DNA from: Diphasiastrum complanatum
Lineage: Eukaryota > Streptophyta > Lycopodiopsida > Lycopodiales > Lycopodiaceae
NCBI GenBank assembly: GCA_029204225.1
Contig: CM055111.1
Coordinates: 42,286,815 to 42,350,814, forward strand
DNA: 64,000 nt
Reading direction: 5' to 3'
In this document: one piece after another, positions 16,360-54,166 of the stretch
Layout of the letters: each line of letters starts with the position of its first letter
Numbering within the stretch: the first letter of the stretch is position 1
Notes under the pieces: model-generated
The model's input: only the letters and a program-made list of their open reading frames with translations
The model's database searches: none
Told to the model about the DNA's origin: nothing
Position numbers and translations under genes: made by a program

Positions 16360-16371
16360 TGGTATCAGAAC
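16360..16371 (+). promoter_or_regulatory. primer binding site, tRNA-iMet type
   Basis: TGGTATCAGAAC directly follows the LTR end, as in most plant copia elements. Confidence 0.92.
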
Positions 16372-16501
16372 ATGCATTTCAATAATCTGCATTTCTACTG
16401 CAGATTATCAGTCTTGTTTCTATCAAGACGTCTTCTAGCAAACGCACAGCCAACAATATTCCGACAATCGTTGTTTCTACCAACGATCTCGTTCAACCAC
16501 A

Positions 16502-18977: not shown

Positions 18978-18984
18978 GAGGGAG
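18975..18984 (+). promoter_or_regulatory. polypurine tract
   Basis: AAGAGGGAG lies directly before the 3' LTR start TGTTAGATTTC. Confidence 0.85.
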
Positions 18985-20467: not shown

Positions 20468-21877
20468 CCAACTTCCTTGAAACTTGGAAGAAGCAACATA
20501 GATATAATAGATTTCATAACATTCACTCAAGTTCTCCTATGAAGATCTGTAAGGCATTATTTTTTCCATTGCAGCACTAATTATATGCCTAATAACATCA
20601 TATGCCATCTTGTTTAATATGAGGGGAGACCAGTGGTGAAGACTTCAAAGCATTGATGTATTTCTCCTCGATGATCAAATTCATGCAATGGCATCTACCA
20701 TCCATCATAACATTGTTTTGGTCGTCACGAGTGCAGATGCTGCTATAGGGGGAGGAAATGATAAATGCTCAAACTTGTGAATGATGCCAATTATTTTAAG
20801 GCATATATGTAACAATAACCAATACTGAAATGCATGAGAAACATGAATTACAAAAAAGAAAGCTCCCAAGTCAAGATGACACACAAGCACGCTTCCGACA
20901 TTCTTTACAAAAAAGATCTTATCTTTTTGACTCAATGCAATACAACTTATTCTGCTTGAACTTGAATGCTTTTGCAATTTCAAGGACATTTGAGGCCTGG
21001 TTAATAAATCGATACCACAGGTCAATTTGTCTAATGACTCTCATGTTTTAGTAACAAATCATAGTTACTCATGGTTTGTTTCTTTAAATAACTCAAAAAA
21101 TTCTCAGGATGTTAGGATGCATATGTATTTTTCTAATGATTGAGGCATCATCAAAGAAAAGCTTCAGTTTTGAAAAGAGAAGTTCTAAAGGCATGATCAC
21201 TAGCCCTACAAATAGCACATCAGCTTATCAATTTTGAGTTCTTTAGGGTTCATATGTCCCCCGAGTTTTACCCAGGTATATTCATATTTTTCATAAATAC
21301 AATGCCCCTTGGTTCATGCCAATGGAGGGAATGGGATATCAAACCCATGGCCTCATTTTTGAAAGTCGAGGGCCCCACTGCTTGCCCTAGTACCCATTGG
21401 CAGTGTCATTATAAGGAGGTGGCTTTCCTTGAAAGGCTGTGAGAGTTCTTCTGGAATCACCAAAAGTTCTTCATAAAATACATGTAGGTCCTTACAGGAG
21501 TTTGTCCTTGAGAGGCATAAATTGAACAGCTGTTATGAAGTCATCAAGGAGGTTTGCATGAAGAAAAACTGTGATCATTTTAATGGACAAGTAGCCCTTT
21601 TAGGTAGCATATCATTAAAAATGTGCATCTCCAGAGAGTCATTAGCAGAACATCGCCTACTCAACCACTCCACAAAAATAACGGTCCACCATCAAAGGTG
21701 AGGTGTGGCACAAAAGCTCTCTGGAGCAAACTGTATCCAGAATAATTCAAGAGATGACAAATGAGAATGCAGTGGATCAGCCTGCTGTCATGGAGCTTAC
21801 AGTAGTGCTGTGATGCAGCAATGTAGTCCAGCATCCATTATACAGCTCAGAATATCCGGATCGAATGTTGTTGCTCA
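20468..21877. other. 3' flank and probable 3' UTR of the DUF3067 gene
   Basis: The minus-strand part nearest 21877 follows the stop codon of the split gene and is presumably its 3' UTR. The end of the transcript could not be placed. Nothing else is recognised here; the short frames at 20705-21051 and 21254-21442 have no known motif. Confidence 0.4.
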
Positions 21878-21943
21878 TTACCTGTATATCCATTCATTAG
21901 CTCGGCCTCCTGTGTCATCCAGGTCGATGAAAATGCTCACAGC
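21878..21943 (-). CDS. DUF3067 gene, last coding exon
   Basis: After acceptor GATGTTCAG the exon encodes AVSIFIDLDDTGGRANEWIY R and a TAA stop at 21880-21878. AVSIF directly continues the ERPRIGK block as in the family. The final CAG/GTAATG also looks like a splice donor, so a further exon is possible but not needed. Confidence 0.87.
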   Translation of the reverse strand, partial: AVSIFIDLDDTGGRANEWIYR

Positions 21944-23708
21944 CTGAACATCAGGATCAGGTTTAGCTAACTTGAATTCGCAAAATCCTACTCACTAGAA
22001 ATCAAACTTCATAATCTACCATATCATCAACTAGCTTCAAAAGTGGAAATTCTATCTAGCTATTTCAAAGCTTTAACAATCAAACGTTGAAATTGCTGAT
22101 GTAGAGACCTTCATGATGTACAGTGTTCCTAACAAAAGATTCCCTAGATTGTGCAACATAAAATTAATACTGCAGCTTGTTGACTGGAGTAATACTGTAA
22201 TTAGATCTTTGATGGATCCATTCAAGTCCAGAACTTGCAACTACTTGAATATACGACTGGGAATAGGTAAATGAATCTGCAATAGATACATCATTCTAGA
22301 GAATAAAATAGCTTTCTGGTTTCTTTATGTAATTACATAGCATAAGGACAGCTGAGTTTGGCAGCTAAATTTTGCCATATACAATGATCAGGAGGTTAAG
22401 CCCTTGTAGTCCATACGATCTGACCAGAGTTTGAGCCTTCACTCCAATCCTTGGCAAATAAGAATAATAAATAAATTCGGGACTTGATTAACTGCTAATT
22501 GCAAAAATTCAGAAGCTGGTGATGCTTTGTAATACTACTGGAGTTGCACTTTCCATTCCGGAATTAGGGTTTCCCGTAACACATTTTTTTTTTTGGGTGC
22601 CAGTATGGATATCAGATTAAAGGTGTTTTCAAGAGCAATTCACTTATCTAGTTTGCTCGGAGTTCCAAGAGAAGTGCGGTCCAATTTTGGGCCATTAAGT
22701 GATTCTTTATCGAACATCTCTATTTCTGTATTATGTGAAATGAAATCACATGGAACCGTATTGAATGACAGCAAACTGACAACAAATATGAAGCATAAGC
22801 ACCCATCTCAGAAGCATAAGCATAAGTATTCCTTCAAACAGTCGTGTGCGTGTGAGTTCTGTGTCGGGAGTCTCTAATCTTCTTTCACATGCCATCTATA
22901 ACAGTCTATTGTTGTTTCAACTCCAATAATCCAAGATTGTAATGATTCCATCATGTCCACCATCCAATTAGGGTTTAGTTAGTATTAAACTATCAAAAAA
23001 ACAAAAAAAATTGGCCATTAGTCTTTTCTCCACCAAAAAAAAAAATTAATTTGCGATCCGGGTCGCGGATCGCCGACATTCTGGAACGCACGTTCCAGAA
23101 CGTTTTTGCAGCGGATCGTGATCCGCTGCAACTTTGTAGCAGACGTTTAAGACTGGGAAGTAGAGCACTAGCATTCACCATTGCATCTTAGGCCCATCTG
23201 AATTTACCCTCAAAAATTTGTCATTGAACTAAAAATAGTTTTCAGCAAAGAGATGGACCATATGCAAACTTCCTGGCTATATATTAAGTTTTCTCTCTAT
23301 TCATTCCTACCTTAACATTATCTACTGAATAAACTTCTAGAGATGAAAGGTAGCTAAGCCGCCTAGAAACGTCTAAGCAGCTTGACACCACAATGACTAA
23401 ATAAACTAGACATTGGCCTTGTTAACTAAAAACAAGAAAAAATAATATTGTTGATAAACAGCAGTGACCAATGCTTAGTAGTACCCAACCCTGCATCTAT
23501 TATGCCTGCAGCCTTTTTAAAAACAGAATTATGATAGTATTTGCTAAACACAGTGGATACTATTAATGTTTTATCTCCCCAAATTCTTGAGTGGTTTTAA
23601 GGGCAAGATACTTCATACATAGAGTGACCACAAGTAAGGTCATTACTACTGTTAGGAATTCAGAGGTAGGCTACCAAATTAGAAATTGGAACTTCGTATA
23701 GACTCTTG

Positions 23709-23754
<46 letters not shown>

Positions 23755-26700
23755 ACACACACACCTTCCCAATCCGTGGCCTTTCTTTTGTCTTTGAAAG
23801 GCTATTTCGAACATATGAGACTGCTCCCCAGCATCTTAAATTGTTTGCAACATCATCTAATCTTAGAAGATACTGTTCTTCTGTCAAAGGAAATGATCGC
23901 TGCACAAACAATCAAGCCGAAACTCATCTTAGTAGCACAAGTTACATTGACAATTATGCCAAGGACAAAACTGAAGTATCAAAAAGGACAAAAAAAATAC
24001 ACAAGTTGCCATAGTTCCATTCTTTTGGCCTCACAAGGATGTTAGGCCACATTTGAATCTTAAGCATGTTACCTCAATCAGGACAACAATGAAAAAAAAA
24101 CTAGAAAGTCTACTCCCTTTTATGTTCTGTTCCATCCCACTGTATCACAGCATTTCTAGGAAATCCTACATCAATTAGAAAATGGATGACTATTTTTGCC
24201 CTATGAGGTTTTGTGCTTGCATGCATCAGTTAAGAAAAGCACGAGAACTAAGACTGTGTACACATCGTGAGAGCCATAGTAGAAGGCTAGAAGCTCCTCA
24301 AAAAAAAGAAAAATTGGGCTGGGTGTATCATTCCATACTTGCAAAACGAGCTTAAATTTTTTTTTTGTCCTGGTAGCAGATTTTTTCAAAGGGCGAGCTT
24401 TAGGAAACACTTTCATGGGCCCCAACAAGAGTAGATAATTGTGGAGAGCAAAGACATTCCTCTATTGCAAATCTCACTGAAAAAAAAATCATTCAGCATG
24501 TTTACATTAGAGGGAGAAAATTGTTTCATACTGCTAGGTGATTTTACCGGGATTACGGATCTACATCGAACTCCATATTTGTGTTCCACTATGATGAATT
24601 TTTCATGATTATGAGTTTGTAAGTATCTATCTATCTATCTATCTATCTATATATAATGATGACCTATAGAAGATATGGAGGAGAGAATGATTTCCGTTCG
24701 TGGGGAATGAAGTATCCCATTATCTATTAATGTTTATTTGCACCTCTAATGTTGGTTTGGCCATGCATGTGAACTATTTTATGGGCCATTTCTAGTATAT
24801 CAAAGTCAAAGTCCTAAAGTCAAATTAATTACTCTTGCATGTAGGAGGTTGCACTCGTTCTAGAGTAGAACATGATTTTTCAATTAGAAATTTAATAACT
24901 TTACCCAAAATAGAGAGCAACTATAGTAATCAGCTTTTTGCTTTTTGCTAAGGACTAGAAAAATTATAAAAAGAGGGCTGGCGCCCCAGCTCCATTCATT
25001 CCATTGTAGAGAGTATGCTCATTCTTCAATGAATTTGAGTTCTCTTTAATCTCTTATGTTGATCTTGATTGGTGGGTCATCATGCAGGTATTGCAGATAT
25101 TTGTTTAGTGACTAAGTTATGGCATGAAAGGTTTGGACATTTGAATTTCAAAAGTCTACAAGTCTTCAGGAAATACCATATGGTTACTAGTTTACCTCAA
25201 GTTGTTTATGATCACAACTTTTGTGAGGGCTGTGTCTTAGGGAAACATCATATGAAGAAATTCGAGTCTAGTACTTATAGGGTGAGAAATGTTCTAGAAC
25301 TTGTTCATAGAAATATGTGTGGTCCTATGAAAATTCAGTCTTATGGGGGAGCAAGTTACTTTATGGTGTTTGCTGATAATTATTCTAGGACATAGTCGCA
25401 GCGAATTGCGGTTCGAACCGCCGAACCGTTCAGATTCGGTTCCTGTTTCGAACCTTTTTTGCCAAAAGAAAAAAAAAAACAATAACAAACGGTTCGAATT
25501 GGCCCCCAATTCGAACCATACAGGCCGGTTCAAATCAGATTGAATTGGATCGAATCGGCCAATTAGAATCGACGTGCAACTATGTTCTACGAAGAATGTG
25601 GGTATAACTTCTCAAGTATAAGGGTGAGGCATTCAAGTTCACATGGTTTAAGACACAGGTGGAGAAAGAAACAAATAGACAGATAAAGATACTTCGTTTG
25701 GATAAAGGGGGACAATATCTTTCTACCATAGTTGCCCGTTCCGGAACTGAATGGGACCCCCAAAAAATTTTAAAAATATGTATTTTTTTATTAAAAAAAA
25801 AAACTGCTTTTTGAAGTTCCTTCTTCTTTTTCATAGTTGCTTTGATGCACATGTATTTCAGTTGTTGGTCCAGTTTCTTGCCCCTATCTAAGTCTCTAAG
25901 TATGAGAGCAGTAGGAAGCTCCATTTTTTAGGTCTAACACACAACCTTTTCAACATGTGGCCTTAGGTGCTCTTCAAGACACATTTTAAGCCTCAAATGT
26001 AGAGACACTAATAGAACTTTGATATTATTATACAAATACCCTATCAACCACAACATTTACTTGTGAACAAGGTTTTACTGAATCAAGATTCTTTCCTAAA
26101 AGAATAGAAATTCCCTTTTGAAAAGTTTTGATCTATCTCAAACATTAAAGAATCAAAACCATTTGCTTATGGACCCGGTTAATCACATGTTGTTCTACCC
26201 TATTTAACTCTATGGTGGAAAATGGATCAAGGTCATATTTAAGTTTGAATCTCAGTTATAATTTTAACGGGACCATGGTTGTATGGAGTTCAAATCATGT
26301 CTACATTTAACTTTGGATTATAGTAATATTTGAGTTTGAATTTGCCAAATGTAGTCAATTATTGTGTGCACTTGAAAGTCATCACTTGCAAGTGAACATT
26401 CTATATTAACACTTGTAAATCTGCAGACTATAAAAGAACACAAAAAAATCCGCAGAACTGGATAAACAATGGATGAAAATTAAAACCGATAAGTCGATTA
26501 GTAAGAAGGAGACTAATCCCGCAGATAGAGCGGGGGTGGGGTGAAGGCCGGATAGGGCCGACTTGGCAAGCGTAGCTACTCCTACTGGCTGCGGTCTAAT
26601 TCTCTTCCAAGCCCCAAATCATCTCTAACGATCTGTTGTAAAAATTAAACTTATAAAACAGCAGATAATGTTGAGTAGAGCAATAGTGAAAATATATCTA

Positions 26701-29700
26701 CTGCTAGCATGCATTCAAACATTACAAATCATACACATTACAGAACAAAGTATTGTGGAAATCGCTTTAATTATCAGAACTGAATTTACAATATTTTCTT
26801 GAGCGTTGTCTGTTTTCTAGATCAACACATTGGCGCAATAGAGGTGTTCTCTCTCATGTGTAATGCGACTGTAAAGCTCACCATCGAGCTATATCAAACT
26901 CTTACAGTTTTGTCTATATCTGTATCCGTGACTGTATCAATCTGTATGTATATTCTCTGATCTATCGTTGATCCTTTTTATGTGATCAATCCAAAGAACT
27001 GATTAAGTTAAAAGATCTAATCAAAAGAAATGCATTAGGCTTAATCGAAACTAATTTTGGTTTCTTGTCGCTGTCCTCCATGCATCAGCCACTCTATGCC
27101 CGTTACACTCCGCCTTCACGCTGCAGACCTTCACATTTTGCTAAAAGACACCTTCAGGATTTTAAAGGCACCTTCGCATTTTTCGGAAGGCTTTTATAAG
27201 GCAGTTTCGCATTTTGCCGAAGGGCGAAAAACCCAAAGGTATGCCAAAAAATATTTCTAAGGCATTTACGAGGCAGTGTCGCTTCTTCTCAAAATGCAAA
27301 AAATGCGACAGTGTCGGGCCAATTGGCCAAAATTATTTTCGAAGTGTTTTTGATTTAGTGATGCATTTTTCTCATGACCCAAAAATGCGAACTGTGCGAC
27401 GAAACAGTTCAAAAATGCAGATTGTGCGAAACATAGTTCAAAATGCAACAGTATATAGCTTCTCTTCGTCAAGATCTTTGTCAATCTGCAATCCTAGGTA
27501 GCATCTTGCTTCCCCTAGGTCTGATATTTCAAAATGCTGAGAAGTATCATGCTTCACCTGAGCAATGAGATTGTCGCTTCTGGACAGAATCAAAGTGTCA
27601 TCAACGTAGACAACAATTATTATGATTTCTCCATCTGTGACCTTTGTATAGACATTGTAGTCGGGCATCAATGGTTGAAATCCTAAGGATCTGAGGGTGT
27701 GATCCTTCTTCTTATACCACTGTCTGGCAGACTGCTTCAGTCCATATATGCTTCTTTGCATTCGGCAGGCGTAGTTGGCAAAGCGTGAGTAGATGAATCC
27801 TGGTGGTTGGTCCATGTAGACTTCTTTATTCAACTCGCCATGTAAGAAGGCGGTCTTCTCATCCACTGTGGATCTTGAGACTGTATGTTGCTGCATATGC
27901 AAATAGTAGGCATAAGGACGAATGCTTTATGACTGGAGAAAAGGTTTCAGTATAGTCAACACCATACTTCTGAGAGAAACCTTTTGTTACCAATCTGGCC
28001 TTGTACTTTGATAAGTTGCCATCAGGTCCATACTTATATTTGAAAACTCACTTGTATTTTACAGTCTTCCTGTCTGCTGGTAAGTAAATCATGTTAAATA
28101 CAAGATAAATCACTATTTTCTAGTTACATTTATCATTTTTTTGTGGAACAATTGGCATTTGAAAATTAGGCTTATTCTTTCCTAGGAACCCTGATTTTGA
28201 ACTCTGCCTGATTCTCAAGCTACAATTGGATCTTATGCCTTCCTAATACTCCAAACCCATACAACACCATATAGATGAAAAAAAGAAAAAAAGAAAACCT
28301 TTCCGACCTAGTACGTTCTGGAACAAACGGTATTGTATGTACATTACGTTTTGACCCAAAAGCGTTGGAACGAGTTTCCAAGCTTTCTACAGAGTTTTAG
28401 GTGCTTTGCAAGGATCGTGGCAAGTACGGAAACGCCTCAACAAAATGGAGTTGCAAAAAGAAAGAATCAGTCTATTGTAGAAACTGCAAGGAGCATGCTT
28501 AAAAGTAAGAAATTTCCGAATATGTTTTGGGTGAAGCAGTTCAAATAGCGGTTTATCTTTTGAATCAAAATCCTACAAAAGTTGTAGAGAATCGGACTCC
28601 AGAGGAAGCTTACAAGGGTTGAAAACCTGACGTAAGTCATTTGAGGGTTTTTGGAAGTATTGCATATGTTCACATACCAAAGGATTTAAGGAGCAAATTG
28701 GATTCAACGGCTACTAAGTGTTTATTTCTTGGATATGATAGTCAAGAGAAGGGATAAAGGTTGTATGACTTGAAGAGTAAGAAAATTATCATAAGTAGGG
28801 ATGTGATCTTTGATGAGAATGGATCTCATAAAGATAAAGAAATATCTTATGATAGGAAGCAAGATGGAGGAATTCCTATCTTGTGTGACGAGTCATTACA
28901 GGAGCCTAAGTCGACACATATGACACATATGACGCCTACACCAATTCAAGTACCTAGAGTGACCATGGTTGAGAAAGGAAAAAGGAAGGAGAGATCAAGT
29001 ACATGGAATACTTATCACCTCTGACTTCACCAGGTAGGAAGCATGGAATATTCAACAAATGGACGTTAAGAGTGCATTCTTTAATAGATTTAAAGATTTC
29101 TAGAGGAGGAAGTCTACATGGTGCAGCCAGAGGGATACATTGTAGCAGGACAAAAAGACAAGGTTTGCAAGTTGGACAAGGCATTATATGGACTTAAGCA
29201 ACACCCAGGGCATGGTACACGAGGATTGACACATACTTTGAGGAGCTTGGTTTTTGAAGGAGTAGTTCAAAGCCTGGACTTAATGTTTTGATCAGGGATG
29301 GTCATCTTGTTATTGTAGTGATGTTCATAGGTTTGGATCGTGATTTGATTCATAATATTAAAAAAGATCTCTCATTAGAGTTTGATATGAAAGATTTTGG
29401 CTCGCTACAATACTTTCTTGACATTGAGGTATGGAGAGTACCACATGGACTATTTATTTCTCAATCTAAGTATGCTCATGAACTTCTTGAAAAGTTCAAT
29501 ATGTTAGAGTGCAAGCCTATTTCTACACCATATGGTAGTGGATGTGAGCTTACTCAAGTTGAGGATGATCAAGATGTAGATGGGAAGTTATATAGAAAGC
29601 TTGTTGGAAGCTTAATTTATCTAACTACTCTGAGACCAGATATTGCATATGCTGTTAGATGGTTAGTCAGTTTATGGCTAAGCAGATTCACTAGAAAGCT

Positions 29701-32700
29701 GTTAAGCGAGTAATCGAATATATCAAGGGTACTTTGAGGTTTGGTATTTTCTATGGAAGACGGGATTTTTTGAGGGATATGTGGATGTTGATTGGGTTGG
29801 AGATGCAGAAGATCGAAGATCTACTACAAGTTATGTCTTTAGTCTCGGTTCGAGTTCTATATCTTGAAGTTCAAAGAAGTAGCATACTATTGCATCATCA
29901 TCTATAGAGGCAAGAGTACCAAGCTACTACGAGTGCAGCAAGTGAAGCAATATGGTTACGAAGGATTCTACAAGATCCTCATATGGTACATGGTACACCT
30001 ACATTACTTCAATGTGATAATCAAAGTTGTATTAAATTGGAGAAGAATCCAATTGTTCACAGCAAGACCAAGCACATCGAAATACAACAACACTTCATCA
30101 GAGAGAAGATTCAAAGTGGTAAAGTAGAGATTATTTATTGCCCTACAAAAGAGCAAGTTGCATATAACTTTACCAAAGTACTGGGCAAAGAAAAGTTTCA
30201 GAAGTTTAGAGAACTAGGAGTAATAGATAACAAGGTAAACATTAAGGGGGTGTTAGAAATTAATGTTTATTTCACCTCTAATGTTGGTTTGGCCATGCCT
30301 ACGAGCTATTGTAGGGGCCATTTCTATTTTTAGTATACCAAAGTCAAAGTCCTAAAGTCAAATTAATTAGTCTTGCATGTAGGAGGGCACACTAGTTCTA
30401 GAATCTACATGATTTTTCACTTAGAAATCTAGTAAGGGTCTTTACCCAAAATAGAGAGCAACTATAGTAATCAACTTTTTGCTTTATTCTTAATGCTTTT
30501 AGCTTTTGCCAAGGACTAGAGAAATTATATAAGGATGGCTGGCACCCCACCTCCATTCATTCCATTGTAGGTAGCTATGCTCATTCTTCAATTAATCTAA
30601 GTTCTATTTAATCTCTTTTGTTGATCTTAATTGGTGTGTGTGAGGGCTAATATGATTAGTTCACTCCTACCTTGAATTTGAGCATCAAATTCCAAGACTA
30701 TTTATACGGTATATCATTGATTGACATGACCATTTATTAATATGGGACCAAGGGTCGTTCTTATTGATTAGGTTACTAACCATGTAAGAGAATGTAAACC
30801 CACTCTAGGACCCAAGAAACCCTAACTAGGTGTCTCCATACACTATAAATAGAGCTAGCTCCACTTACTCCATAGTTTAGTACTTGGTGCTTTCACTCCT
30901 TTGTAGGAAGTTCTACAAAAGCTCTTTGTGGGAGATATGGTACTCGTTGTAGCCATTGATGTTCTTTCACTGTTCTTAGTTGGTGATTGCTTCACAGCAA
31001 GCGACAATAGGCCCTGACAACAAGAACATCCCTTCCACATAAGCTGAGGATTGGAGTTTGAAACTGTAATGGGATTCATTCATCCACATAAGTTGAGGAT
31101 TGGAGTTTGGAACCGTAATGGGATTCATTCATCCACAATTGAGGATCTTTTGGATTTCATTAACAGGGGGATATACTATTGTTAGATGCATGAGAGTCAT
31201 GAGAGAGGTTTACCAAAGTTCCCTAGGTTTTGCTGGTGTTCATATAGAGCAAAGACACAATCGACGGATGCTCTTTCTATATATAGCAAGACTTAATTTA
31301 CAGATCTTCGGCCCTAGCAGAAACCTTCCATTTGCTTGTGATATCATAGTTTTCAAAGCACACTATGCATATTTCTATTGACGGTGGGAAGTAGCATGCT
31401 TAGTCCATGTTTCGCACATCAAGAGTTCATATTTGGCAATGATGTGTTGCCATTCTCATGACATTCCATATAAATGATAGCACATCTCCTGGCAGAGACC
31501 TTTCATTTGCATGTGGTATCATAGTTTTTATAGAACACTTATGCATATTTCTATTGATGGTAAGAAGTAATGTTGCTAGTGCATGTTTCATACATCAACA
31601 ACTTCAATTTGACAATGATGAGTTCGCCACTCTCACAACACTCCATACAAGTGATAGCAAGTCCCTCTATACTCAGTGATTGTGTTATGATATACCTCGG
31701 CCATGATGCTCATACAACATGTTCAAGAGGAGCTTGTGTTTGTTGGTCCCATCTACAATTCCAACAATAAATCATCCAAAAGCCTTCACAATTCATTCAC
31801 AAGAGAAAGTTTGACTAAGATTACCTTTACTAACACCCATGGAGACCAACATGGTCTATAAGACCAAATTCCAATACAAATACCAAAGTCTTAGAGAATT
31901 TTGAAACAACACGAAGTAATACTATTCTTAAGATCAACTACTAATTAGAAGAGTGGCAAAATTTTATGTCTAGCAAAAGCTTTAAAAAGCAAACTACCAA
32001 CCATGCTAAGATTATCACGACTGAAGACTCATTGGAAAGTCCCTTAAAAATCTTTTTGAAGTAGTTGTAAGCAGCCACATTACAAAATATGGTGAAATTT
32101 CGTTTCCACTTCCTCATTGTTGTAAAGAAAGCATGTCCATGCCTCCCAAGGGGGGCACTTCGAACTGCACTATCATATCGTTTCCGATTGAAGTTCATCT
32201 GGACCCAAGAAATGCCCTGGTTTTTCTTCATGGAAATTCTATTTCAATTTGAGGAAGCATGAGACTTTAGACAACCACCATTGATAGTCTATCAACTTGT
32301 GCAAAGTCAACTCTGATTATTCATGAATTGAGTTACAGTGCCTAGAGCTTAAGAGATAATTGCTTTGCTGATAGTAATATAGTTGAGGCAGCTAAGCAAA
32401 CATCTAGAAACAGTCTCGTTAAGTTTATTTTCAGCATAAAAAATCTTCAAATATTTATTTGTTACACTTCCAAATTTCAAACTTACCTGCTACAACTTAA
32501 TGCAGTCAAGACTCAAGACTATTAAATACATATTATAGGTCAAGACTCCAGTTTACTGTTTTACAGCCTACAGCTTTATGTAGTCTAAATTCCAGACTAA
32601 ATACAGCAAGAACTCCAAAAGCATTTCCTAAAAACTTGCTGATATGCTCTTCCTCTTCAAGGCAATTGATTAAGCACAGAAACAATAAAGTAAAAAGTGT

Positions 32701-33011
32701 TACTCTCAACTGATATATTAATAAATCTTTTACTAGACTCAAAGCCAGCAAAAGAACTACCATACCTGAGAACTTAATGAAGGAAAAGGCAAACCTGTTC
32801 ACGATACTTCCACATGACATTCATAGCCAATAACTGACGTCCCATAAACTCCTGAAATAGCCATGAAGGCAAAAATATATCAACCACATATGACAAAAAA
32901 CTGAATGTGTGGCATGCATAAGTGGTAGTTGGCTATCAATCCAAATGGAAACTTTACTCAACAAATGTGGCAAATAACTCTTTTTTTTTTTTTTGGGGGG
33001 GGGGGGGAATT

Positions 33012-33092
<81 letters not shown>

Positions 33093-33670
33093 TATTAATG
33101 TCCTTCCCATGCCAAAAGGCATATAATACTAGTAAATGTACATGTCAAGCAAGTGGTAACAGTGTGAGCGTATGAAACGTCTCTAAAACAGTAACAGAAA
33201 GGAACAACATATCTAATACTATGAACTGAAATAAATGAGATGAGATAGATATATAGGAGCATAAATGAGGTATATCATTATCATCATGTCTTGTTGCTGC
33301 TATAGAAGGATGTGATATGAGCTGCAGCATGAGATAACTCAGGTAATTGCTGATGTCGTCTAGGAGGATGAGATGAGTATCTCCTCATGATAGGTCGGAT
33401 AACTCAAGCTGCAACATGACTATAAGTGGTGCGCAGCCTCTGCTCTCAATGGATAGGTACGTCGTCATCATCCTCATCATCACTAGACTTGGAATCCCAT
33501 TGCGGTCTTCTCCTAGAGAAGAAAGAGGTAATCTGAAGCTGAACGCTAAGATGCCTCTGCTGAGCTATTTGACATAGATCTCGTTGTAGTAGGAACATCT
33601 CTCATATCATTAAGTGCAACACAGCCGGAGTCCTCATATGCTATGAGTGATCGAAGTATGGTCGTTCTCC

Positions 33671-33712
<42 letters not shown>

Positions 33713-36700
33713 TTGAGCTTTATTGATGTCTATTAAGTACCAAAGGTGCATAAAACTGAGATGTACATGTTGTGGGAGCGTAAAATGTGTCCAATAAGAA
33801 ATATAATTTTAAGTAAAAGCTGAAACTGAATACGAGACTAAACTTGGAACATAAACTGAATCTAAGACTGACTCTTAGCTCAAAAAGTTAAAACAAAGGC
33901 ATAAAGCCATAAAAACATCATACCAATCTCTTCTACTTCAATGAACTGAATAAAGTCTTGATAGATGCTAATGGTTGAGCTCTATGGTGTGAGGAACATG
34001 GTGTCTGTTGGAGGGTTTGCAGATCCCAAGGCAACCCTAACCCTAGTTAATAAGTGAGAGGGATTTGGCACCTTGCGTGTGTAAGTCCAACCCGATGATC
34101 ACATAGTTATTTGATTGATTAGTTAAAAGTCAATAAAAGGACTTTATGCCTTTTTGCGGGACTTTTAATGTCGCAGGGCCTAAATGTCAAGTTAGTGAAT
34201 AAAGTTGGGTTTCCCTCCAAATTTGATGGTTCCCACACTTTTTTAAATTTGAATAAAAAGAGAGGCAAGACTGGACCAATAGGATTCAGAGGCCAGGGTC
34301 CTCCTCTCTACTATAAGAAGGGACCAACTTGAGTTGCTCCTCATGTTCATTTCCACATTTCAATAAAGCAGATTGGTTCTCTTCAGAAATGGATTGATGA
34401 ATGTCCTTGCTCTTCTTCTTTCCTTCTCCATCTCTCATGCTTTCTTTGTATTTTGCTAATTATTGGATCTGAATGTTATTGGGATTGAGTGTTATTATAC
34501 TTTTTATGGGAGAGAAAGAGAGAGAGAAAGAGTAAGCTATCTTTGTTGTGGATCGTAGTGTTAATGGATCTTAGTGTTAACGAGTAGGGTTAATGGATGT
34601 AGAGTTAGATTTAGATCTTCCATTCATGCTGAAATTTGAACTAAACTATCGCTCTCATGGGAACGAACCTACGCGTGATAACTAACTCCGTCTCTATGAT
34701 GCTAGATTGACTAGATCTTGGATTCAGGTTAGGCAAGGAAAGAAACCCACTACAATTTTGGCACCGTTGCCAAGGAGCTACGCCAATTTTTCAGTTTGCA
34801 GCATGATTGTTGGATGGTTAGCTTGCATTAGGCATCTTGTCGTGACATGAATAGTGTTAGATCTGCATTTTAGGGTTAGTTTGGGATTGATTTTGCTTGA
34901 TTTGAGTGGATTTGCTTGTTTGAAATCTAATTTGATTGTTTAAACAGGGAAAGCTATTCAGATCACCAATCTTAAGATCCATTTGGATCTGAGATATAAG
35001 AGAAAATAACAAAAATCGGTCAAATCTGCCAGATTTGGTCAAAAAGAGGCAAAAAGCGTCATCAGAGCTTAGAACTTTTTACCCTCTTTCAGAAAACCTT
35101 CGCCAAGTTGCAGACACCTTCGGTTTTGTTCACAGAACCTTCAGTTTGAAGGGCGAAGATTAATTCCCAGCAGATTTCCAGAAACATCAAAAAAACCGTC
35201 AAAAAACACCAAAAAATCATCAAAACCCTAAAAATACAGAAAAAGAACCTTCGCCCGATTCACTGTGCACAGGTGTGATTCAGATCTATCTACTGCCAGG
35301 TCAGCGAAGAATAATACCAAAAATAGAAAGGGTTTCAGAGGATCAGTTGTCATATTGCCATATTTTTACCAAAAAAGTCACTTTTTTGCAAAATTACTGA
35401 TCAGATCATAGAAAATCTTGAATTTTACCCTCGAGAACCATCAGAAACTATATTTTCTTGTGTCATAAACCTTCGCCAGTTTTTCCAATTGTATCTGTGT
35501 CAGATCTTTCACCTGAGAGGTCGGCAAAGGTTATTTTTCAAGAAATCATCAAAAAAAATGTTCAGAGAGTTTTTTGCCCAAAATAGCACTATTGAACCTT
35601 TGCCGAGCCAATCTTTGCCTAGTGAACCTTCGCCAGACCTATTTTAAGTTTCTGATTTTCCAGATCAAGTCTCTGTCAAAATTTGGATCAAATCTGATAT
35701 ATTTTGAATTGGATTCTGAGAGATTTATCAGTTTTGAGAAGTATCGATTGATCGAATCTCGAAAACTTTTTCATGATATAGAATCAGATTCTTGAAAAAC
35801 GGAATAGATCTAGCAGATCTGATCTGAGATAGTTGTGATTAAAAAATCTAGATCCAATCTCATTGTCTGCTTAATCTAAATTTGTAAAGATGGCTGCCCC
35901 TGGAGCTGCTCCTGGAGGTGCTCCACAGGAAGTCAATCCAATTATTGTTAGAAGAGCACCCCGTTTAGATCTACCCAAATATAATGGATTAACAGATCCA
36001 GTTAGATTTCTTCAGATCTATGCTGAATCATGTGAAGTCTATGGTGAGAATTATCCTCAAGATAAACTTCAGCTGTTTCCTATGGCCTTAACAGGCGCAG
36101 CACAAGATTGGTACTATAACCAAGACGAAACTGAGCGTACAGATTGGGAGGTTGTTAAGCGAGCCCTTATCGCACGGTTCAAACCGCGAAAGTTTATGGA
36201 AGACCCTTTCCTACTTTTAAGTAAAATTAAAATGGGAAAGCGGGAAATGGTTCGAGATGACATTGAACGGGTGAAACGTCTTAGATCTGAATGCGAACCT
36301 GAGCTGATTAACGAAAATGCCATGATTATGTGGTTTTTGTCAGGTCTACCTAAACGGATCAGACGTGAGTTGAAACGCCATAATGAGTATGCACTCTTGC
36401 AAAATGCCATGGACGATGCAATTCGGGAGGAGGATGAAGATTCAGATGAGGAGCCAAATATCAGTATGTTGCCTTATATAGCAGGGCAGACTACTACGAC
36501 ATCCACCACTATTGCATCAACGAATGCCAATGCTACTGCAGAAATGATGCGCCTTGGAAAATTTCCACGAGGAAACAAACAAGGAACTTGAAAAGCTTGC
36601 AAAGACTTTTCCTACCAGGGAAAATGTCTGGTGTTCTATTTGTGCAGGAAATCACACAGTGAACGAGTGTCCTCAATTGAAAAAACGAATGGAACTCAGC

Positions 36701-39700
36701 GTTTGCCATCTGTGTAATTCACCTGATCATGAGACTGCTTTTTGCAACTTCAACCCTCGGATAATTCAACAACGGTATGCCCATATGGGATATCGAGAAC
36801 CACAGTATGGAGGTAATCCAGCAGTAAGACCGCGACAATCTGCTCTTGGATACCCGGAACGTTTAGCTTTACTTGCCCCACCAAAGCACTCCGCTCCTCC
36901 TGCCAATTTGATGGAACCAGAACCTTACGGAAGTGCTGAGCAATGGAACTATGGTAATGATCAGGAAGGTGGATCTTCAGAACAATATGCCATTTATGCT
37001 GCCACTCAACAACAAGCTTCTAGAAATTGGACCAGAGCACCACTTGGATGCTTTGCATGTGGAGAAAATCACAGAGTTGCAGAATGTCCACATAAAGGGA
37101 AATTTTGTACCATTCTGTCGTGATTGTGGTTATGGGCATTGCTATAAAGACTGTCCAGCAAGACCGAAGCCACCACCAGCTACAGCACCTGTAAATTTGA
37201 TAACAATCAAGCAAAGACCAGTAGCTCAGAATAAACCAAGTGCACCCTTGATGGTGGTCACCAGAGCACAGAAGCAAAAAGAACCAGTAGTGATCCAGTA
37301 CCTGCTGATTCTATACCATTGAACGATACACCAACAGCATCGGGAGTCTATCCAAATCTTAATGCAGAAAAACGAAGATATCAGAATATGAGGCAGTGGA
37401 TTAAACATCTGCAAGAAGAAGAGGAGCTTGAAGCTGCTAAATCAACAGCTGAAGTTCGGTCTTCACCATTGCAGCCTTCAAGAAATTTACGTACGGATAT
37501 GAATGATCAGTTACATCATCTTGAAGAACCCTTCAAGATGACTGAACCAGAAGCACCGCAAACAGAACTACTCATATACATTTTGTCTAGTAAGATCAAT
37601 ATTTCATTGGGAGAGTTCCTGAAGTTGGTGCCAAAAGCAAAAGAAGTCTTAGCGCAAAAGTTAGCTCAAGAAGAACCAGAAGTCCATCAGGAGCCACTTT
37701 TTTGTGCTGGATTTGAAAAATCTAACGAAGCACTCCATGTTGGAGCCGCTTGGGAAAGTGAACAAAAGAATATCACTCTGCCGATACAGCATAGACAATT
37801 TCCTAAAGAAGCAGCCGTGATAGATGGCGGTTCAGGAGTTAACCTGATCTCTACAAAGCTATGTGCAAAATGGGGCCTTACAAAGACCAAACCTGCTACT
37901 TTTGCTATTAAGCTAGCTGATCAAACGACAGTTCGTCCACGAGGAATGGTGGAAGATATACCTGTCAGGATTGCAGGAGTACAGTTCGTCATTACTTTCG
38001 TAGTGATGGACTTACCAGAAGCGCCTAATGTTTACCGAGTTCTATTGGGACGTCCATGGTTACGAGTTGCGCAAGTAATTCATAACTAGGGTACCGGAAA
38101 AATCACTTTTGAAAATCATGAACGTGCAGTTAAAATTGATCCTACAACTTGGACTATCAAACCAATGGTTCAAAAAGAGGATGACAATTCGTCAACAACG
38201 GATCACACTTGTGACTAACCACAGAAAAATTTGGGAGTTCACTACGATTCTCAAACAGATACGGTCAATTGGAATGAAGCTCTTGCAACGATTGACTGTC
38301 CAGCAGGATATATGTGTCAACAAGATAATCAATCAGATTTGAGCGAGATTTCCTTATGAATCTTTTAGAATTATAAAATATACCCAGTCATACTTTAAAA
38401 TCTTTGGGTGATCTCTTAATATTAGCATAATGGTTAGCTCTATCTTGAGCACTATGAATACTCTCACGAGCTAAATGCAACATTTCTTGCATTTCATGCA
38501 GCAAATCTCCAACCTTGTGTTCTCTACTATTACAAGCAAATTCTATCAAAGGGATGTAATCTTCCCAATGAGATTTCCTATGAAAAACATGTCCTCAACA
38601 TATTTTCCATAGTCTGAATAGTGCTTTCATTCTATCCATCTGATTCAAGACGATCAGTAAAACTAAAACTAAGAGAAGTCTCAAGTTTATGGAAAACTAC
38701 AAACCTGACATGACCTGTGACTTTTAGATCTCTATAACTAATGATATCACTAGACAGTCCATATAACGTAAATAATCTTTCAACAAAAATCTGCTTAGTT
38801 CACTTAAGTGGAATGAATGTAGCTAACTTATCAAAGAGAATCACTTTTTGGGAAGTGCAACTAGAAAATCCATAAATATGTGCTCGCATCACTTATCAAG
38901 GATGTCTAAGGGATGTAATAAACCATTAATTAGCCTTGAAGCATTTAGCTTTAGCTAGTTGATAAAATTTACATATTAACACATAAGACTCAACAAATGG
39001 TTTGGGTCTTGGCCAATAGAACTCTCTTCTGACCAAGTCCAAAGTCCTATGTATACCTAGATGACTCGCACAAGGTAACCTTGTGTGGGGGGTGTGTCAT
39101 GACATTCAAACAGAACTTTTCTCTTCAAAGCACCATCCCTTGATATACAAATATCTCCCTTTCAAGAATAACAATCCATTTTGAATGTTGTATTGTTCCA
39201 CAATCTTCTTATCTTTCATATCCAATTGAGAACCCTATAAACCAATTTCAAGCTCATTCTCAGTTTAGTTTAAACAATCTTTCATATCCGACCATAATGA
39301 GAATCATTTTCACACAATCCTCTGAACAACAGATATAGATTTGTAAAATTCTGAGTGAATGTAAGTTCATTTAACCCACCAATCCAACTTGATTAGAGTT
39401 GCCTTTTATATATTGAATCTCATGATCAAACTCTTGCATCACCTCAGCTCATCAGGCTTTCGAATCTCTCAGATCACGTTGATTATAAAAATAATTAAAA
39501 GGCTAGTGATCTGTATACACTATATACTTACTACCATACAAGTAGTGTCTCCAGGTTTTACGTGCATGAGTCATAGCAAATAATACTTGGACCTCAGTTG
39601 TATAACACAACTGAGGTCCAGTGAAAATTCTTGCTCCTATCAATCTATAATAGATCTGCTCCAATTGTAATATCACTTGCGTCGATTCTCAAGATGTAAG

Positions 39701-42645
39701 GCTGGTTTGGATTTGCAATCTATAACACGGAAGCAAAAACAATCAAGCTTTTGAGTTTCCCAAAACACTAATTCATTTCCCCGTTCCATACAATAAGTGG
39801 ACTAGGCCATTTTTCTTCTTCTTTGTATTAATTCTACCCATGATTGCGCTCGCTTGGATGGTTTTTTTAATCAAATTTTGTTTATATGTGATGTTCAAGA
39901 TAACTAAACTTCATATTGTCTGTAAAATCTTCTAGACTACGAAAAAGATGTGCAAGTTTGTAGTGAAAGAACTTCTGACATGTGAATCTTGTAAAAAAAA
40001 TTACAGCTTTTTTCAACACAACTTTCCAGAACGTGAGGGTCCGGAATGACGTTCCAGTGCAATTTAGCATAGGTTAACATAAATGGAGCAAGATAATGAT
40101 GATGAAGACGGTGCGGCAGAAGTTATTATGAGCACATGATATATGCGCTGCGTTCCAGAACATAGAGTTTCAATCACGTTCCGGAACTGCTTGTTCCGAA
40201 AATTTCAGAAAGTCCCGTTCCATAACGTGTTTTTTTTTTTGTTTTTTTTTTTGGGGGGGGGTGTCGGTCATTTTTTTACATGTCTTAGAGATGGAAAAAA
40301 GCCATAAAAAGGCATCTAAAAGCACATTTAAATACATTGTACCAAGTACCATATTCTAAGCACTTATCTTCTGAATGTTTAAAAAATTCACCTGATAAAA
40401 GGTATTTAAATTCCAGAACAGACTTATGAAGACACTAGGCCTTTTTTTTTTGAAGTCATGAATCCCCAATTTAAAAAAGAAAACCATTTCTAGATGGAAA
40501 CAATTTTCACCAAGATGAGATCAAACCTTAAGTTTAGAATCTAGTACCCAATCCGCCTTAAAAAACAAAAAGCTCCCATCATGCCACCTTCCTTTCTTTA
40601 ACATATAATCGACAATTTTGCATGAATAATTTTAGCTCCAAGGAAGATTGAAGAATAGAAACTAACGACAATGAGAAATAATAGTTTAGGCTGACTGCTG
40701 ATTAACAAAAGAAGAAAGAAGAATCTCATTTGATAAGTTTTTTATGAGATTCCTCCATAATCAAGACAAACTTGTCTCAAGAACTAGTCTAAGACTAGAT
40801 GGTAACACTTCAAAGTTCGTATTATGATAGCATGCAATACCCAAAAACATTAATATGCTACACGTGAATTAGTGTACCACCATAAGAAAACCACCAGGCA
40901 TAGATTTTGTTTTTTTGGGGTTTCAACATTCCGGAACGCTCATTCCGGAATGCCGTTCTGATGCAACTTAGCTGCACATCAAAGAGAAAGAGGGTGTGGG
41001 ATTGAAGACTATGATGGAATTTGGGAAATGATCTCATGTTTTGTGAAAAGAAAGGAGGCATGTGACGAAGCAAGAGGTTTACAAAGAGACTTTGCAACTG
41101 ATCTCGACATGCATTTTTGAAATATCAACGTTGTAATTGGAGGTGGAAAATGATAGATAAGTGATCATGAAAAAAGCGAACAGTATGAAGATACACAAGA
41201 CTTTGAAATGAGCAGTTATAAACCACAGGAATTAAAAAAGTGGATGAAAGGGATTGCAGGCATTATGCATTTGGGCTTTTATAACACAGGCATAGTACTT
41301 ATTCAGTGTGAAGAAATAAGATGTCGGCATTCCTATCATTAAAAGAAATGGCCTTGCTCAGCTTCCAGCCTGGATGATTGAATTGAAGTCAAATAGGTGT
41401 GACTGCAACAGTATTTTTTATTGAAGACCTTCTCTTTGCATACATGCTGTAACTATTGTCTTGAAAGAGAGAACTGTAAAGAAAAATACATCTTTGACCT
41501 CCGAAATTCTGTCATTGTAAGAGGTATCCATTGTTTCAATTTTGTACAGGGTTGCATTGATTTGAGGAAAAAATTTGTGGAAGAGGTTTTTCAGAAGTTA
41601 AATGAAAAAACAAAAACCCAAGATTACCATCCTAAACCATGTGGATTGTTCCAGCACGCTCACTTGCTAATGTTCACAGTAGCCACAAAAAAAGTTTTCT
41701 TTCAAGATCACTGCAAAAGTCTAACCATATGTAACAGTAACATGCAATTTGGTAAATACCTATCCCATTTACTTTAATTGTCTTTCCATCTATCTAGAAG
41801 TAGTTCCAGATAGATGGTGCAACGAACATATCAAGTTTTGACATTAATATATCTACTCGTCACATTCAGATTTCAAACTACCAGAAAAACTGTAAATGCT
41901 CTTAGGAGTTTACCAAGCATCAACTTGTAGAAACTGCTTTGAATAGCTATTCTACTTTCAGAAGGCATTCTAAGCTGCTCCTCAAAGATATTCAACTTTC
42001 AGAGAAGATTCCAAACTTGCCCTTTTTATTAGCTGGACATCGTAGGACCTTCCATACTTCTGTCTGATGAGTGTAGCCAGCTCTTTGCCACCAAAAAAAT
42101 CATCATTGCCATCTATGATGTTCTCCAAACGACTCCTAAATGAGTCAGCAGGTGTCTACAAAACATCAATTACCAAAATCATTTTCAAAGTGTCATGTCA
42201 AAGATAAGAATGACGCAGTTGCATAATCTTCAAAGTACATAACCACCTGATCAGCTCAGAAATTGAATGATTACTGTATTCTAATTTCTTGCAATACAAT
42301 TCAGATACGCAATGCAAGAGTATTTCTAGAATGCAATTAAGGTGCATTGTTAGTGTTAAGCCTCACTTCATCAGTACTGCCACTTTGTGAACTGTCCTCC
42401 TCTTCATCACCTTTTTCATTTTCATCTGGTTCCTCTGTCCCAGAAAGTGCATACATTGGTGTTATAAGAGGTTTTCGCTTCCAAAAAAACCTTTCTCTAG
42501 CTTGAGGCATTCTTAACTTCGATAACTGTGTCCTGGGGCGAAATATGCTCTTCGAATGAGAAATGTGGTGACTGTACAGCCCAGATTCTTCCTGGAGCAC
42601 TTTCATGTGAATGGTACTCTGGAACCCCACACTTGAAGATGCCAT
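21878..42645 (-). CDS. DUF3067-family, probably plastid-targeted protein; five coding exons, 223 aa
   Basis: Joining 42645-42367, 42155-42021, 32851-32795, 23899-23765 and 21943-21878 on the minus strand gives one frame of 223 codons plus stop, with every junction in phase 0. Residues 1-93 begin MASSSVGFQ, are Ser- and basic-rich, then turn acidic, as in a chloroplast transit peptide and linker. Residues 94-223 carry the conserved DUF3067 blocks: FFGGKELATLIRQKYGRSYD, EFMGRQLLAMNVMWKYREQ, RSFPLTEEQYLLRLDDVAN, ERPRIGK and AVSIFIDLDD. The domain is known from cyanobacteria and plastid-bearing eukaryotes. I know no established reaction for it. Splice sites are canonical except a GC donor on the third intron. 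The introns of 9169 and 8895 bp hold nested retroelements, yet no coding exon shows a stop or frameshift, so the gene looks intact. The upstream in-frame ATG at 42657 is an alternative start. The stop could instead be a splice donor (CAG/GTAATG). Confidence 0.9.
23055..23140. repeat. clustered inverted repeats (MITE-like)
   Basis: GGAACGCACGTTCC (23081-23094) lies within TCTGGAACGCACGTTCCAGA, and GCAGCGGATC/GATCCGCTGC form a second hairpin around 23109-23129. The segment ends GCAACTTTG, like the GCAACTATG end of the insertion at 25391-25584. Confidence 0.6.
23711..23764. repeat. (AG)20(AC)7 microsatellite at a splice donor
   Basis: (AG)20 is followed by (AC)7. On the gene strand it reads (GT)7(CT)20, and its first GT is the donor of intron 5. 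Confidence 0.95.
23765..23899 (-). CDS. DUF3067 gene, fourth coding exon
   Basis: A 135-nt exon encoding 45 residues, from RSFPLTEEQYLLRLDDVAN to KERPRIGK. The acceptor is GTTTGTGCAG. The donor AAG/GTGTGT is itself the start of a (GT)7(CT)20 tract on the coding strand. Confidence 0.93.
24624..24650. repeat. (TATC)n tetranucleotide repeat
   Basis: About seven TATC units followed by TATATA. Confidence 0.93.
24727..25070 (+). repeat. 5' LTR (partial)
   Basis: It matches 30260-30634 from TTAATGTTTATTT through GGCCATTTCTA, CAAAGTCAAAGTCCTAAAG and the TTGATCTT...ATTGG end. About nine bases of the LTR start are replaced. Confidence 0.85.
25081..25726 (+). pseudogene. copia integrase, N-terminal part
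   Basis: LWHERFGHLNFKSLQVF with CEGCVLGKHHMKKF is the HHCC zinc domain. NMCGPMKIQSYGGASYFMVF and DNYSR follow, starting the core. A 194-bp insertion follows. The frame resumes with KNVGI and, over frameshifts, reaches ILRLDKGGQYLST, where the second insertion sits. Removing the first insertion and one TSD copy restores DNYSRKN in one frame. Confidence 0.9.
25391..25584. mobile_element. hAT-like MITE (194 bp) inside copia integrase
   Basis: The termini are CATAGTCGCA and TGCAACTATG, inverted repeats matching at 9 of 10 bases. They are flanked by TTCTAGGA (25383-25390) and TTCTACGA (25585-25592), an 8-bp duplication with one change. The interior is full of GGTTCGAACC-type palindromic words and a poly-A tract, and has no coding potential. 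The 8-bp duplication points to the hAT superfamily. Confidence 0.8.
25727..28382. mobile_element. 2.66-kb insertion with a perfect 8-bp TSD (hAT-like)
   Basis: The insertion is flanked by CTTTCTAC at 25719-25726 and 28383-28390, a duplicated piece of the copia integrase frame. The left end, CATAGTTGCCCGTTCC, resembles the terminus of the 194-bp MITE. The right end, GTTGGAACGAGTTTCCAAG, shares only an inner CGTTCC inverted word, so the outer termini are degenerate. No transposase is recognised. It contains a minus-strand copia RT fragment (27438-28085) and an LTR-like stretch rich in GCACCTTCGC words at about 27125-27230. Confidence 0.75.
27438..28085 (-). pseudogene. copia reverse transcriptase fragment
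   Basis: The minus strand reads PADRKTVKYK, a stop, VFKYKYGPDGNLSKYKARLV, GFSQKYGVDYTETFSPVIKH, a short frameshifted stretch, then KTAFLHGELNKEVYMDQPPG, YGLKQSARQWYKK, an intact VVYVDDTLIL catalytic box and YLGLQID. The 154-codon frame at 27438-27902 holds the catalytic half. RNase H and all other domains are missing. It lies inside the 2.66-kb insertion and is unrelated to the copia element around that insertion. Confidence 0.92.
28391..29030 (+). pseudogene. copia integrase, C-terminal part and linker
   Basis: After the insertion the frame reads PQQNGVAKRKNQSIVETARS, FPNMFWV, then over a frameshift YLLNQNPTKVVENRTPEEAY, SHLRVFGSIAYVHIPKDLRS and CLFLGYDSQEKG. After a stop it reads LYDLKSKKIIISRDVIFDEN and a charged linker. 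The third catalytic acidic region and the GKGY-like module are recognisable. The piece continues the integrase ending at 25726. Confidence 0.9.
29050..30250 (+). pseudogene. copia RT (C-terminal half) and RNase H
   Basis: RT enters at QMDVKSAFF near 29060, with its N-terminal half deleted, and continues through VYMVQPEGYIVAGQKDKVCK and LDKALYGLKQH. Where the YVDD box should be, the sequence reads VVMFIGLD near 29310. FDMKDFGSLQYFLDIEV, SKYAHELLEKFNM and DIAYAV follow. RNase H appears over frameshifts as VDVDWVGDAEDRRSTTSYVF, SSKKQHTIASSSIEA, LLQCDNQSCIKLEKNPIVHS and KTKHIEIQQHFIREKI. It ends before the AAGGGGG polypurine tract at 30244-30250. Confidence 0.92.
30251..30634 (+). repeat. 3' LTR
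   Basis: It starts TGTTAGAAATTAATG directly after AAGGGGG and matches the 5' LTR. It is somewhat longer because of a TTATTCTTAATGC insertion. The right border is uncertain by a few bases. Confidence 0.85.
30639..31030 (+). other. possible solo LTR or promoter-bearing remnant
   Basis: It begins TGTGAGGGCTAATATG directly at the copia 3' LTR edge and contains ACTATAAATAGAG at about 30841-30853, a good TATA box. No partner LTR was found in the window. Confidence 0.3.
31035..31132 (+). repeat. 49-bp tandem duplication
   Basis: CCACATAAGCTGAGGATTGG and the following 29 bases repeat head to tail from 31084 with three substitutions. Confidence 0.9.
31309..31666 (+). repeat. 179-bp diverged tandem duplication
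   Basis: The copy at 31309-31487 (CCTAGCAGAAACCTTCCATT) and the copy at 31488-31666 (CCTGGCAGAGACCTTTCATT) align along their length, including GCATATTTCTATTGA and CAATGATG words, with many substitutions. Confidence 0.85.
31667..32794. other. intron sequence, no feature recognised
   Basis: Part of intron 4 of the DUF3067 gene. The 96-codon minus-strand frame at 31941-32231 has no family resemblance that I can name. Confidence 0.45.
32795..32851 (-). CDS. DUF3067 gene, third coding exon (57 nt)
   Basis: A micro-sized exon of 19 codons, EFMGRQLLAMNVMWKYREQ, with acceptor GCTATTTCAG and donor CAG/GTTTGC. It is isolated by about 9 kb of transposon-rich intron on each side. The peptide is one of the most conserved blocks of the family, which is why the exon can be recognised. 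Confidence 0.93.
32981..33089. repeat. T14-G13 run and (AG)37 microsatellite
   Basis: Poly-T (32981-32994), then poly-G (32995-33007), then (AG)n at 33016-33089. The unique sequence right of the AG tract resembles that right of the tract at 33672-33709. Confidence 0.93.
33672..33709. repeat. (AG)19 microsatellite
   Basis: It is followed by GCTTTATTGATGTCTATTAAG and CCAAAGGTGCATAAAACT, a diverged copy of the sequence after the AG tract at 33016-33089. Confidence 0.93.
34006..34754 (+). repeat. probable 5' LTR of a gypsy element
   Basis: It begins TGTTGGAGGG, ends ACTACA, has a CAATAAAG poly-A-like word near 34360, and is followed by a primer-site-like TGGCACCGTTGCC. No second LTR is present, so the borders are inferred. 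Confidence 0.6.
34759..34776 (+). promoter_or_regulatory. primer binding site, tRNA-Asp-like
   Basis: TGGCACCGTTGCCAAGGA is close to the TGGCGCCGTTG-type primer site of many plant gypsy elements. Confidence 0.7.
34777..35889 (+). other. gypsy leader with repeated ACCTTCGCC words
   Basis: No frame is seen. The words AACCTTCGCC and GAACCTTCGCCAG recur at irregular spacing between about 35095 and 35640. Confidence 0.6.
35890..36591 (+). CDS. Ty3/gypsy gag, 233 codons, then frameshift
   Basis: An open frame starting MAAPGAAPGGAPQEV after a long leader. The retrotransposon gag core includes FLQIYAESCEVYGENYPQDK, LFPMALTGAAQDWYYNQ, ARFKPRKFMEDPFLLLSKIK and IMWFLSGLPKRIRRELKRH, then an acidic stretch EEDEDSDEEP. 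It ends by a frameshift near 36560, beyond which the zinc-knuckle part continues in another frame. This is the best preserved of the three gag copies of this family in the window. It is antisense to the DUF3067 gene within intron 3. The frame itself is clean, but the gag protein is cut short. Confidence 0.92.
   Translation: MAAPGAAPGGAPQEVNPIIVRRAPRLDLPKYNGLTDPVRFLQIYAESCEVYGENYPQDKLQLFPMALTGAAQDWYYNQDETERTDWEVVKRALIARFKPRKFMEDPFLLLSKIKMGKREMVRDDIERVKRLRSECEPELINENAMIMWFLSGLPKRIRRELKRHNEYALLQNAMDDAIREEDEDSDEEPNISMLPYIAGQTTTTSTTIASTNANATAEMMRLGKFPRGNKQGT
36554..37320 (+). pseudogene. gypsy gag C-terminus with four zinc knuckles
   Basis: The frame from 36554 carries CSICAGNHTVNEC, CHLCNSPDHETAFC and CFACGENHRVAEC. 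After a frameshift near 37100 a fourth knuckle, CRDCGYGHCYKDC, follows. Three of the four have the shorter CX2CX3HX4C spacing and one the usual CX2CX4HX4C. Such knuckles bind the packaged RNA. The linker between them is proline- and glutamine-rich. The 37319 frame continues into the protease. Confidence 0.88.
37319..38350 (+). pseudogene. gypsy aspartic protease and following linker
   Basis: A frame of 256 codons ends at 38089. After an acidic N-terminal part it contains FCAGFEKSNEALHVGAAWES, then the protease core AAVIDGGSGVNLISTKLCAK, where the active site reads D-G-G-S, and VVMDLPEAPNVYRVLLGRPW. After the stop at 38087, sequence corresponding to KITFENHERAVKIDP and WNEALATIDC continues in broken frames to about 38350, matching the minus-strand copy at 55215-55457. 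RT and integrase of this copy are missing. Confidence 0.9.
38351..39710 (-). pseudogene. Ty3/gypsy RNase H and integrase remnant
   Basis: On the minus strand, from 39710 downward: AYILRIDASDITIGADLL and YNQRDLRDSKA of RNase H; AEVMQEFDHEIQYIKGNSNQ; a zinc-domain region with KRKVLFECHDTPPTQGYL; and the integrase core EHIFMDFLVALPKK, FTDRLESDG, STIQTMENMLR and DYIPLIEFACN. It ends with ARESIHSAQDRANHYANIKR and SPKDFKV. Stops are frequent. It lies tail to tail with the gypsy gag-protease segment and belongs to a different gypsy group. Confidence 0.85.
39711..42020. other. intron sequence with GTTCCGGAAC-type words
   Basis: Part of intron 3 of the DUF3067 gene. No coding domain is seen. Palindromic words around TTCCGGAACG occur at 40026-40060, 40148-40218 and 40928-40960, the first and last ending in TGCAATTTAG or TGCAACTTAG, like the ends of MITE-like copies elsewhere in the introns. 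A T/G homopolymer lies at about 40229-40261. Confidence 0.45.
42021..42155 (-). CDS. DUF3067 gene, second coding exon
   Basis: A 135-nt, 45-codon exon from acceptor TTTTGTAG to donor AGG/GCAAGT. It encodes residues 94-138, including FRSRLENIIDGNDDFFGG and RQKYGRSYDVQLIKR. A GT donor 4-5 bases downstream would break the frame to the next exon, while the GC donor keeps it. Confidence 0.9.
42156..42366 (-). other. DUF3067 gene, intron 2 (211 bp)
   Basis: A short GT-AG intron without insertions, in contrast to the next two introns. Confidence 0.85.
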
Positions 42646-42669
42646 CCGATAGGTCATCTCCTCCTTATA
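42367..42669 (-). CDS. DUF3067 gene, first coding exon (transit peptide)
   Basis: The exon is bounded by an acceptor (TATCTCAG) ending at 42670 and a donor (GAA/GTGAGG) starting at 42366. The first 24 bases are 5' UTR if translation starts at 42645 (MASSSVGF), or 12 bases if it starts at 42657 (MTYRM). It encodes the 93-residue N-terminal region: a basic, Ser-rich stretch including MPQARERFFWKRKPL, then the acidic linker EEPDENEKGDEEED. The MASSS start was chosen because it fits plastid transit peptides. Confidence 0.8.
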
Positions 42670-54160: not shown

Positions 54161-54166
54161 CTGGTT

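Follow-up and report, generated by a model that had tools for sequence, protein, structure and literature searches.

Do five short exons spread over 21 kb of the genome of the clubmoss Diphasiastrum complanatum, some of them separated by introns of about 9 kb, belong to one working gene, and what might its product do? We analyzed a stretch of 64,000 nucleotides (C20:42286815-42350814), referred to here as the window, in which all positions given below are counted. The exons very probably constitute a working nuclear gene of the DUF3067 family, of cyanobacterial type and single-copy at the sensitivity of a profile scan of the genome.

Translation of the joined exons, each of which has a length divisible by three, confirmed the proposal of an earlier note on this DNA that five minus-strand exons join in phase 0 into a protein of 223 residues: the joins yield 223 codons and a stop, with no internal stop in the frame. 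The translated join started at 42660, so that E-M-T-Y-R precedes MASSS in that product. The coding part of the gene is arranged as follows.

42367..42645, minus strand: coding exon 1, from the ATG at 42645 (MASSS...), with a putative transit peptide and an acidic linker
42156..42366, minus strand: intron 1, 211 nt, GT-AG, phase 0
42021..42155, minus strand: coding exon 2, 135 nt, in which the DUF3067 domain begins
32852..42020, minus strand: intron 2, 9169 nt, GC-AG, phase 0, containing a Ty3-type gag/protease remnant
32795..32851, minus strand: coding exon 3, 57 nt, EFMGRQLLAMNVMWKYREQ
23900..32794, minus strand: intron 3, 8895 nt, GT-AG, phase 0, with an old Copia-type element and, inside it, a Copia fragment in the opposite orientation
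23765..23899, minus strand: coding exon 4, 135 nt, detected by the genome scan with PF11267
21944..23764, minus strand: intron 4, 1821 nt, GT-AG, phase 0, its donor abutting a (GT)n(CT)n microsatellite
21878..21943, minus strand: coding exon 5, ending EWIYR*, with the stop common to the family

All four acceptors are AG; three donors are GT, and the donor of intron 2 at 42020 is a non-canonical GC (AAAAGG|GCAAGT), a feature absent from the earlier note. Introns with GC-AG borders are a recognized minority. Another GT donor a few bases past the end of exon 2 was rejected, since splicing there would lengthen the exon by four bases and shift the frame, and no additional residues occur at this point in the deposited protein described below. 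Arrays of (AG)n were observed at 23711-23751, directly at the intron 4 donor, at 33016-33089, about 165 nt before exon 3, and at 33672-33709.

The assignment to DUF3067 was borne out when the joined product was aligned to Pfam PF11267, which it matched with residues 117-221 over profile positions 1-98/98 (E = 2.5e-35, 121.3 bits; curated cut-off, 25 bits). The product also matches the Nostoc protein Alr2454, whose structure has been solved (PDB 2ljw), at E = 6.5e-23, a similarity at which the two are taken to share a fold. Because the match to PF11267 spans the full profile and is joined by that to 2ljw, the exon set is not a chance assembly. At E <= 1e-3 there were 456 homologues, the best of them the D. 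complanatum protein O6H91_20G067000, identical across the aligned query; the comparisons below refer to the 120 listed of these 456 protein matches. Residues that do not vary among 37 aligned sequences from plants and cyanobacteria are kept in the D. complanatum product. A PF11267 scan of the whole genome (1,744,706,496 bases), which would overlook short exons, scored four candidates and returned a single match, exon 4.

The DUF3067 proteins of other land plants (for example, P0008 of Ceratopteris richardii and P0009 of Araucaria cunninghamii) likewise combine a full-length domain with an N-terminal extension of similar length, and share the blocks KYGRSYDVQ, MWKYREQ, SFPLTEE, ERPRIGKAVSIFID and EWIY. 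The D. complanatum protein differs from them by an R in place of K before EFMGR at the end of exon 2, as do some conifer-like sequences, and the deposited D. complanatum model differs further by another C-terminal tail. In contrast, Alr2454 of Nostoc sp. PCC 7120 comprises about 100 residues without an N-terminal extension and is encoded by an intronless bacterial gene. The extension that precedes the domain in D. complanatum measures about 115 residues and plausibly includes a putative N-terminal transit peptide; the protein is most likely imported into the plastid.

The two longest introns had been described as transposon-filled, a description that applies to part of their length. The following elements were recognized in them.

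24726..30639, plus strand: old Copia-type long terminal repeat (LTR) element in intron 3, with LTRs at 24726-25077 and 30259-30639 and an RVT_2 piece at 29258-29713
27438-27926, opposite to the LTR element: antisense RVT_2 piece (Copia) in intron 3
35875..38089, plus strand: Ty3-type gag and aspartic-protease remnant in intron 2 (PF03732, E = 5e-9)

Of the 8.9 kb of intron 3, the LTR element takes up about 5.9 kb; the remaining intron sequence was assigned to no element. The two LTRs of the intron 3 element are 82% identical when gaps are included, with 35 mismatches in 350 gap-free columns and a Jukes-Cantor distance of about 0.11. Protease matches within the intron 2 remnant are weak (PF13650, 0.0021; PF13975, 0.0034), both under the curated cut-offs. 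The elements in introns 2 and 3 are old and broken. Beyond the gene, the window contains two younger LTR-like direct-repeat pairs, one at 45986-46806 and 50436-51266 (96%) and one at 10023-10720 and 13464-14159 (95%) with a Copia-type gag inside, as well as a duplicated Copia-type cluster at 15341-20467, with gag pieces and repeats that are 86-95% alike. Ty3-type remains lie on the minus strand at 53543-58334, with RVT_1 at 53543-54166, and DNA within this region shows about 65-68% similarity to the intron 2 gag/protease remnant.

Introns of such length have been reported on a genome-wide scale in a fern. The Ceratopteris richardii genome paper describes transposon insertion into introns as leading to exceptionally long genes: introns there average 5,555 bp, and 17,745 of them are longer than 10 kb (PMC9477723). 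In both cases retroelements within introns lengthen genes, although the fern belongs to another lineage and was surveyed genome-wide, whereas a single gene is considered here. Within D. complanatum itself, two adjacent exon matches of a PGK-family gene lie 4.9 kb apart on C23, an arrangement that recurs on C2167; long introns thus occur elsewhere in this genome. In the other D. complanatum genes of PGK, the single family used for comparison, neighboring matches fall within about 1 kb. Since the PGK spacing reaches only 4.9 kb, the typicality of introns of about 9 kb rests on the fern report (PMC9477723). With these two precedents, the words "split" and "hidden" used in the earlier note do not fit the locus: this is an ordinary plastid-type gene with long introns and ordinary splicing.

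The expectation that annotation would probably miss the gene also fails, because it has been deposited as O6H91_20G067000 (P0001), with identical internal exon joins; the "20G" of this locus tag agrees with the location of the window. The two ends of the deposited model are different. Its coding sequence begins at an in-frame ATG at 42657 (MTYR), four residues upstream of the MASSS ATG at 42645. Both starts are in frame, and the MASSS start is a little likelier, as fern-like homologues start with MASSS or MASTS (seen in P0002, P0003, P0004, P0006 and P0007). At the other end, the deposited C terminus reads ...EWIYSLLQRAFVPHLTFDGGPLFLWSG, which is obtained when 21881-21731 is removed as an intron.

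21731..21881, minus strand: terminal intron of the deposited model, 151 nt, GT-AG (GTAATG...ATACAG), whose donor GTAA overlaps the TAA stop (CAG|GTAATG)
21661..21730, minus strand: coding part of exon 6 of the deposited model, with the tail SLLQRAFVPHLTFDGGPLFLWSG from a by-eye reading of the frame; 3' untranslated region if the exon 5 stop is used

The stop position in exon 5 that the earlier note had chosen is shared by 117 of the 120 listed homologues (ending EWIYK in 94, EWIYR in 21 and EWINR in 2), and the family therefore favors it; only P0001, P0034 and P0038 read through this shared end. The C terminus ending at exon 5 is possibly better than the deposited one.

We found no paper mentioning DUF3067, PF11267 or Alr2454 in the literature searched, and the function of the family was approached through its genomic surroundings in cyanobacteria. 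In a contig scan for DUF3067 relatives, the best 80 of 266 were kept, all of them Nostocales by their record titles. A PetC match lay within the locus in 80/80 of these, PetA in 79/80 (the exception, L015, being a contig end) and TatC in 60/80; in L002, for example, the neighbors identified by Pfam were PetC/Rieske, cytochrome f and TatC. Beyond the Nostocales, 292 genomes were sampled across the cyanobacterial phylum. DUF3067 was present in 138 of them, TatC in 212, and TM_PetC, the PetC anchor family, in 141 at E <= 1e-3, with 138 passing the cut-off. Positions for both DUF3067 and PetC were available in 136 genomes; of the two DUF3067 genomes with no PetC position, G178 does show a TM_PetC match in the genome table, whereas part of the stretch in G228 reads N. 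The two genes lay within 3.5 kb of each other in 101 of the 136, head-to-head in all 101, and the gap separating their domain matches had a median of 260 nt. The gene tatC was found within 4 kb of DUF3067, always convergent, in 55 of 128 genomes, this count covering those of the 138 for which a TatC position was given. Many cyanobacteria thus have the order petA-petC / DUF3067 / tatC, which is probably ancestral.

The reading that we favor is that of a functional gene from which pre-mRNA splicing would remove four coding introns, two of which old retroelements have apparently lengthened to some 9 kb and one of which is of the GC-AG type, and whose product would help to build the cytochrome b6f complex, with its action directed at the Rieske protein PetC or close to it. 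From the cyanobacterial gene order, we give a role of DUF3067 in b6f/Rieske biogenesis an even chance. Several points weigh against this reading as a whole. Support for the gene comes from sequence, which shows the exons and the family, and expression is presumed. The deposited model has a different end, which puts the main C terminus in D. complanatum in question. In 35 of the 136 genome assemblies, DUF3067 does not lie near petC: the two are far apart on one contig in 17 and on different contigs in 18, some of the latter possibly through assembly breaks. One genome, G148, has petC and petA, and DUF3067 was not found there in the 292-genome search; in-frame stops interrupt DUF3067 in G142 and G265, two genomes in which the alignments to PetC and TatC extend over most of each protein. 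The b6f complex can thus dispense with DUF3067 in some cyanobacteria, and since the family does not occur wherever the complex does, it could be no more than a helper, one that certain lineages drop. Gene neighborhood falls short of proof, and for a plant protein a cyanobacterial neighborhood is only a hint; a link to oxygenic photosynthesis in general may yield an identical pattern of presence. In L112 and L113, two cyanobacterial genomes, a DUF3067 remnant with stops was seen between the PetC and TatC matches, a natural loss in which the b6f genes are kept.

It is a serious possibility, if short of an even one, that DUF3067 does another photosynthetic job, or one related to twin-arginine translocation (Tat), for instance in a photosystem or in Tat export, and that its adjacency to petC-petA and tatC is merely inherited order. 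The position of tatC as the other neighbor in 55/128 genomes speaks for this, as does a presence that may track oxygenic phototrophs as much as b6f itself; the link to petC, however, is about twice as frequent as that to tatC and always divergent, and TatC occurs in 212/292 genomes versus 138/292 for DUF3067. As to the gene itself, it is most improbable that it is a dead or decayed copy whose exons are open by chance. Although two introns carry retroelements and intron 2 has a GC donor, the 672 coding nt contain no stop or frameshift, the residues invariant in the 37 aligned sequences are retained, and the profile scan of the genome, with its four candidates scored, gave no second DUF3067 match that could be the working copy. 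The judgement of the earlier note that the gene is probably functional holds. We further consider it unlikely, though less remote, that the main product is the deposited form of 249 residues, in which the stop-codon intron is spliced and a new 23-residue tail replaces EWIYR. That protein does exist as a deposited sequence, and the GT-AG sites of the 151-nt intron fit, but EWI[YN][RK] ends nearly all listed homologues, the other two that read through (P0034 and P0038) carry different tails, and the 23-residue tail has no relative among the listed homologues.

A point of comparison is DEIP1, a cytochrome b6f assembly factor. According to a 2022 paper, very little is known about the assembly of the b6f subunits (PMC9279372). 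DEIP1 is a chloroplast protein with a domain of unknown function, as the D. complanatum protein probably is, and the suggested partner process would be shared, but DEIP1 is unrelated to DUF3067. A bolder version, which we put forward tentatively and would sooner doubt than rely on, is that DUF3067 is an unnamed conserved b6f biogenesis factor that came with the petC-petA neighborhood from the cyanobacterial ancestor of the plastid and probably acts at Rieske export or insertion, and that the C terminus of the clubmoss protein may be switched by the stop-codon intron.

As a gene, the locus adds one more conserved plastid protein, already annotated, to a large plant genome. Its interest lies mainly in the DUF3067 family, with its solved structure and putative link to cytochrome b6f: a factor that stands head-to-head with petC in most sampled cyanobacteria is directly testable by knock-out.
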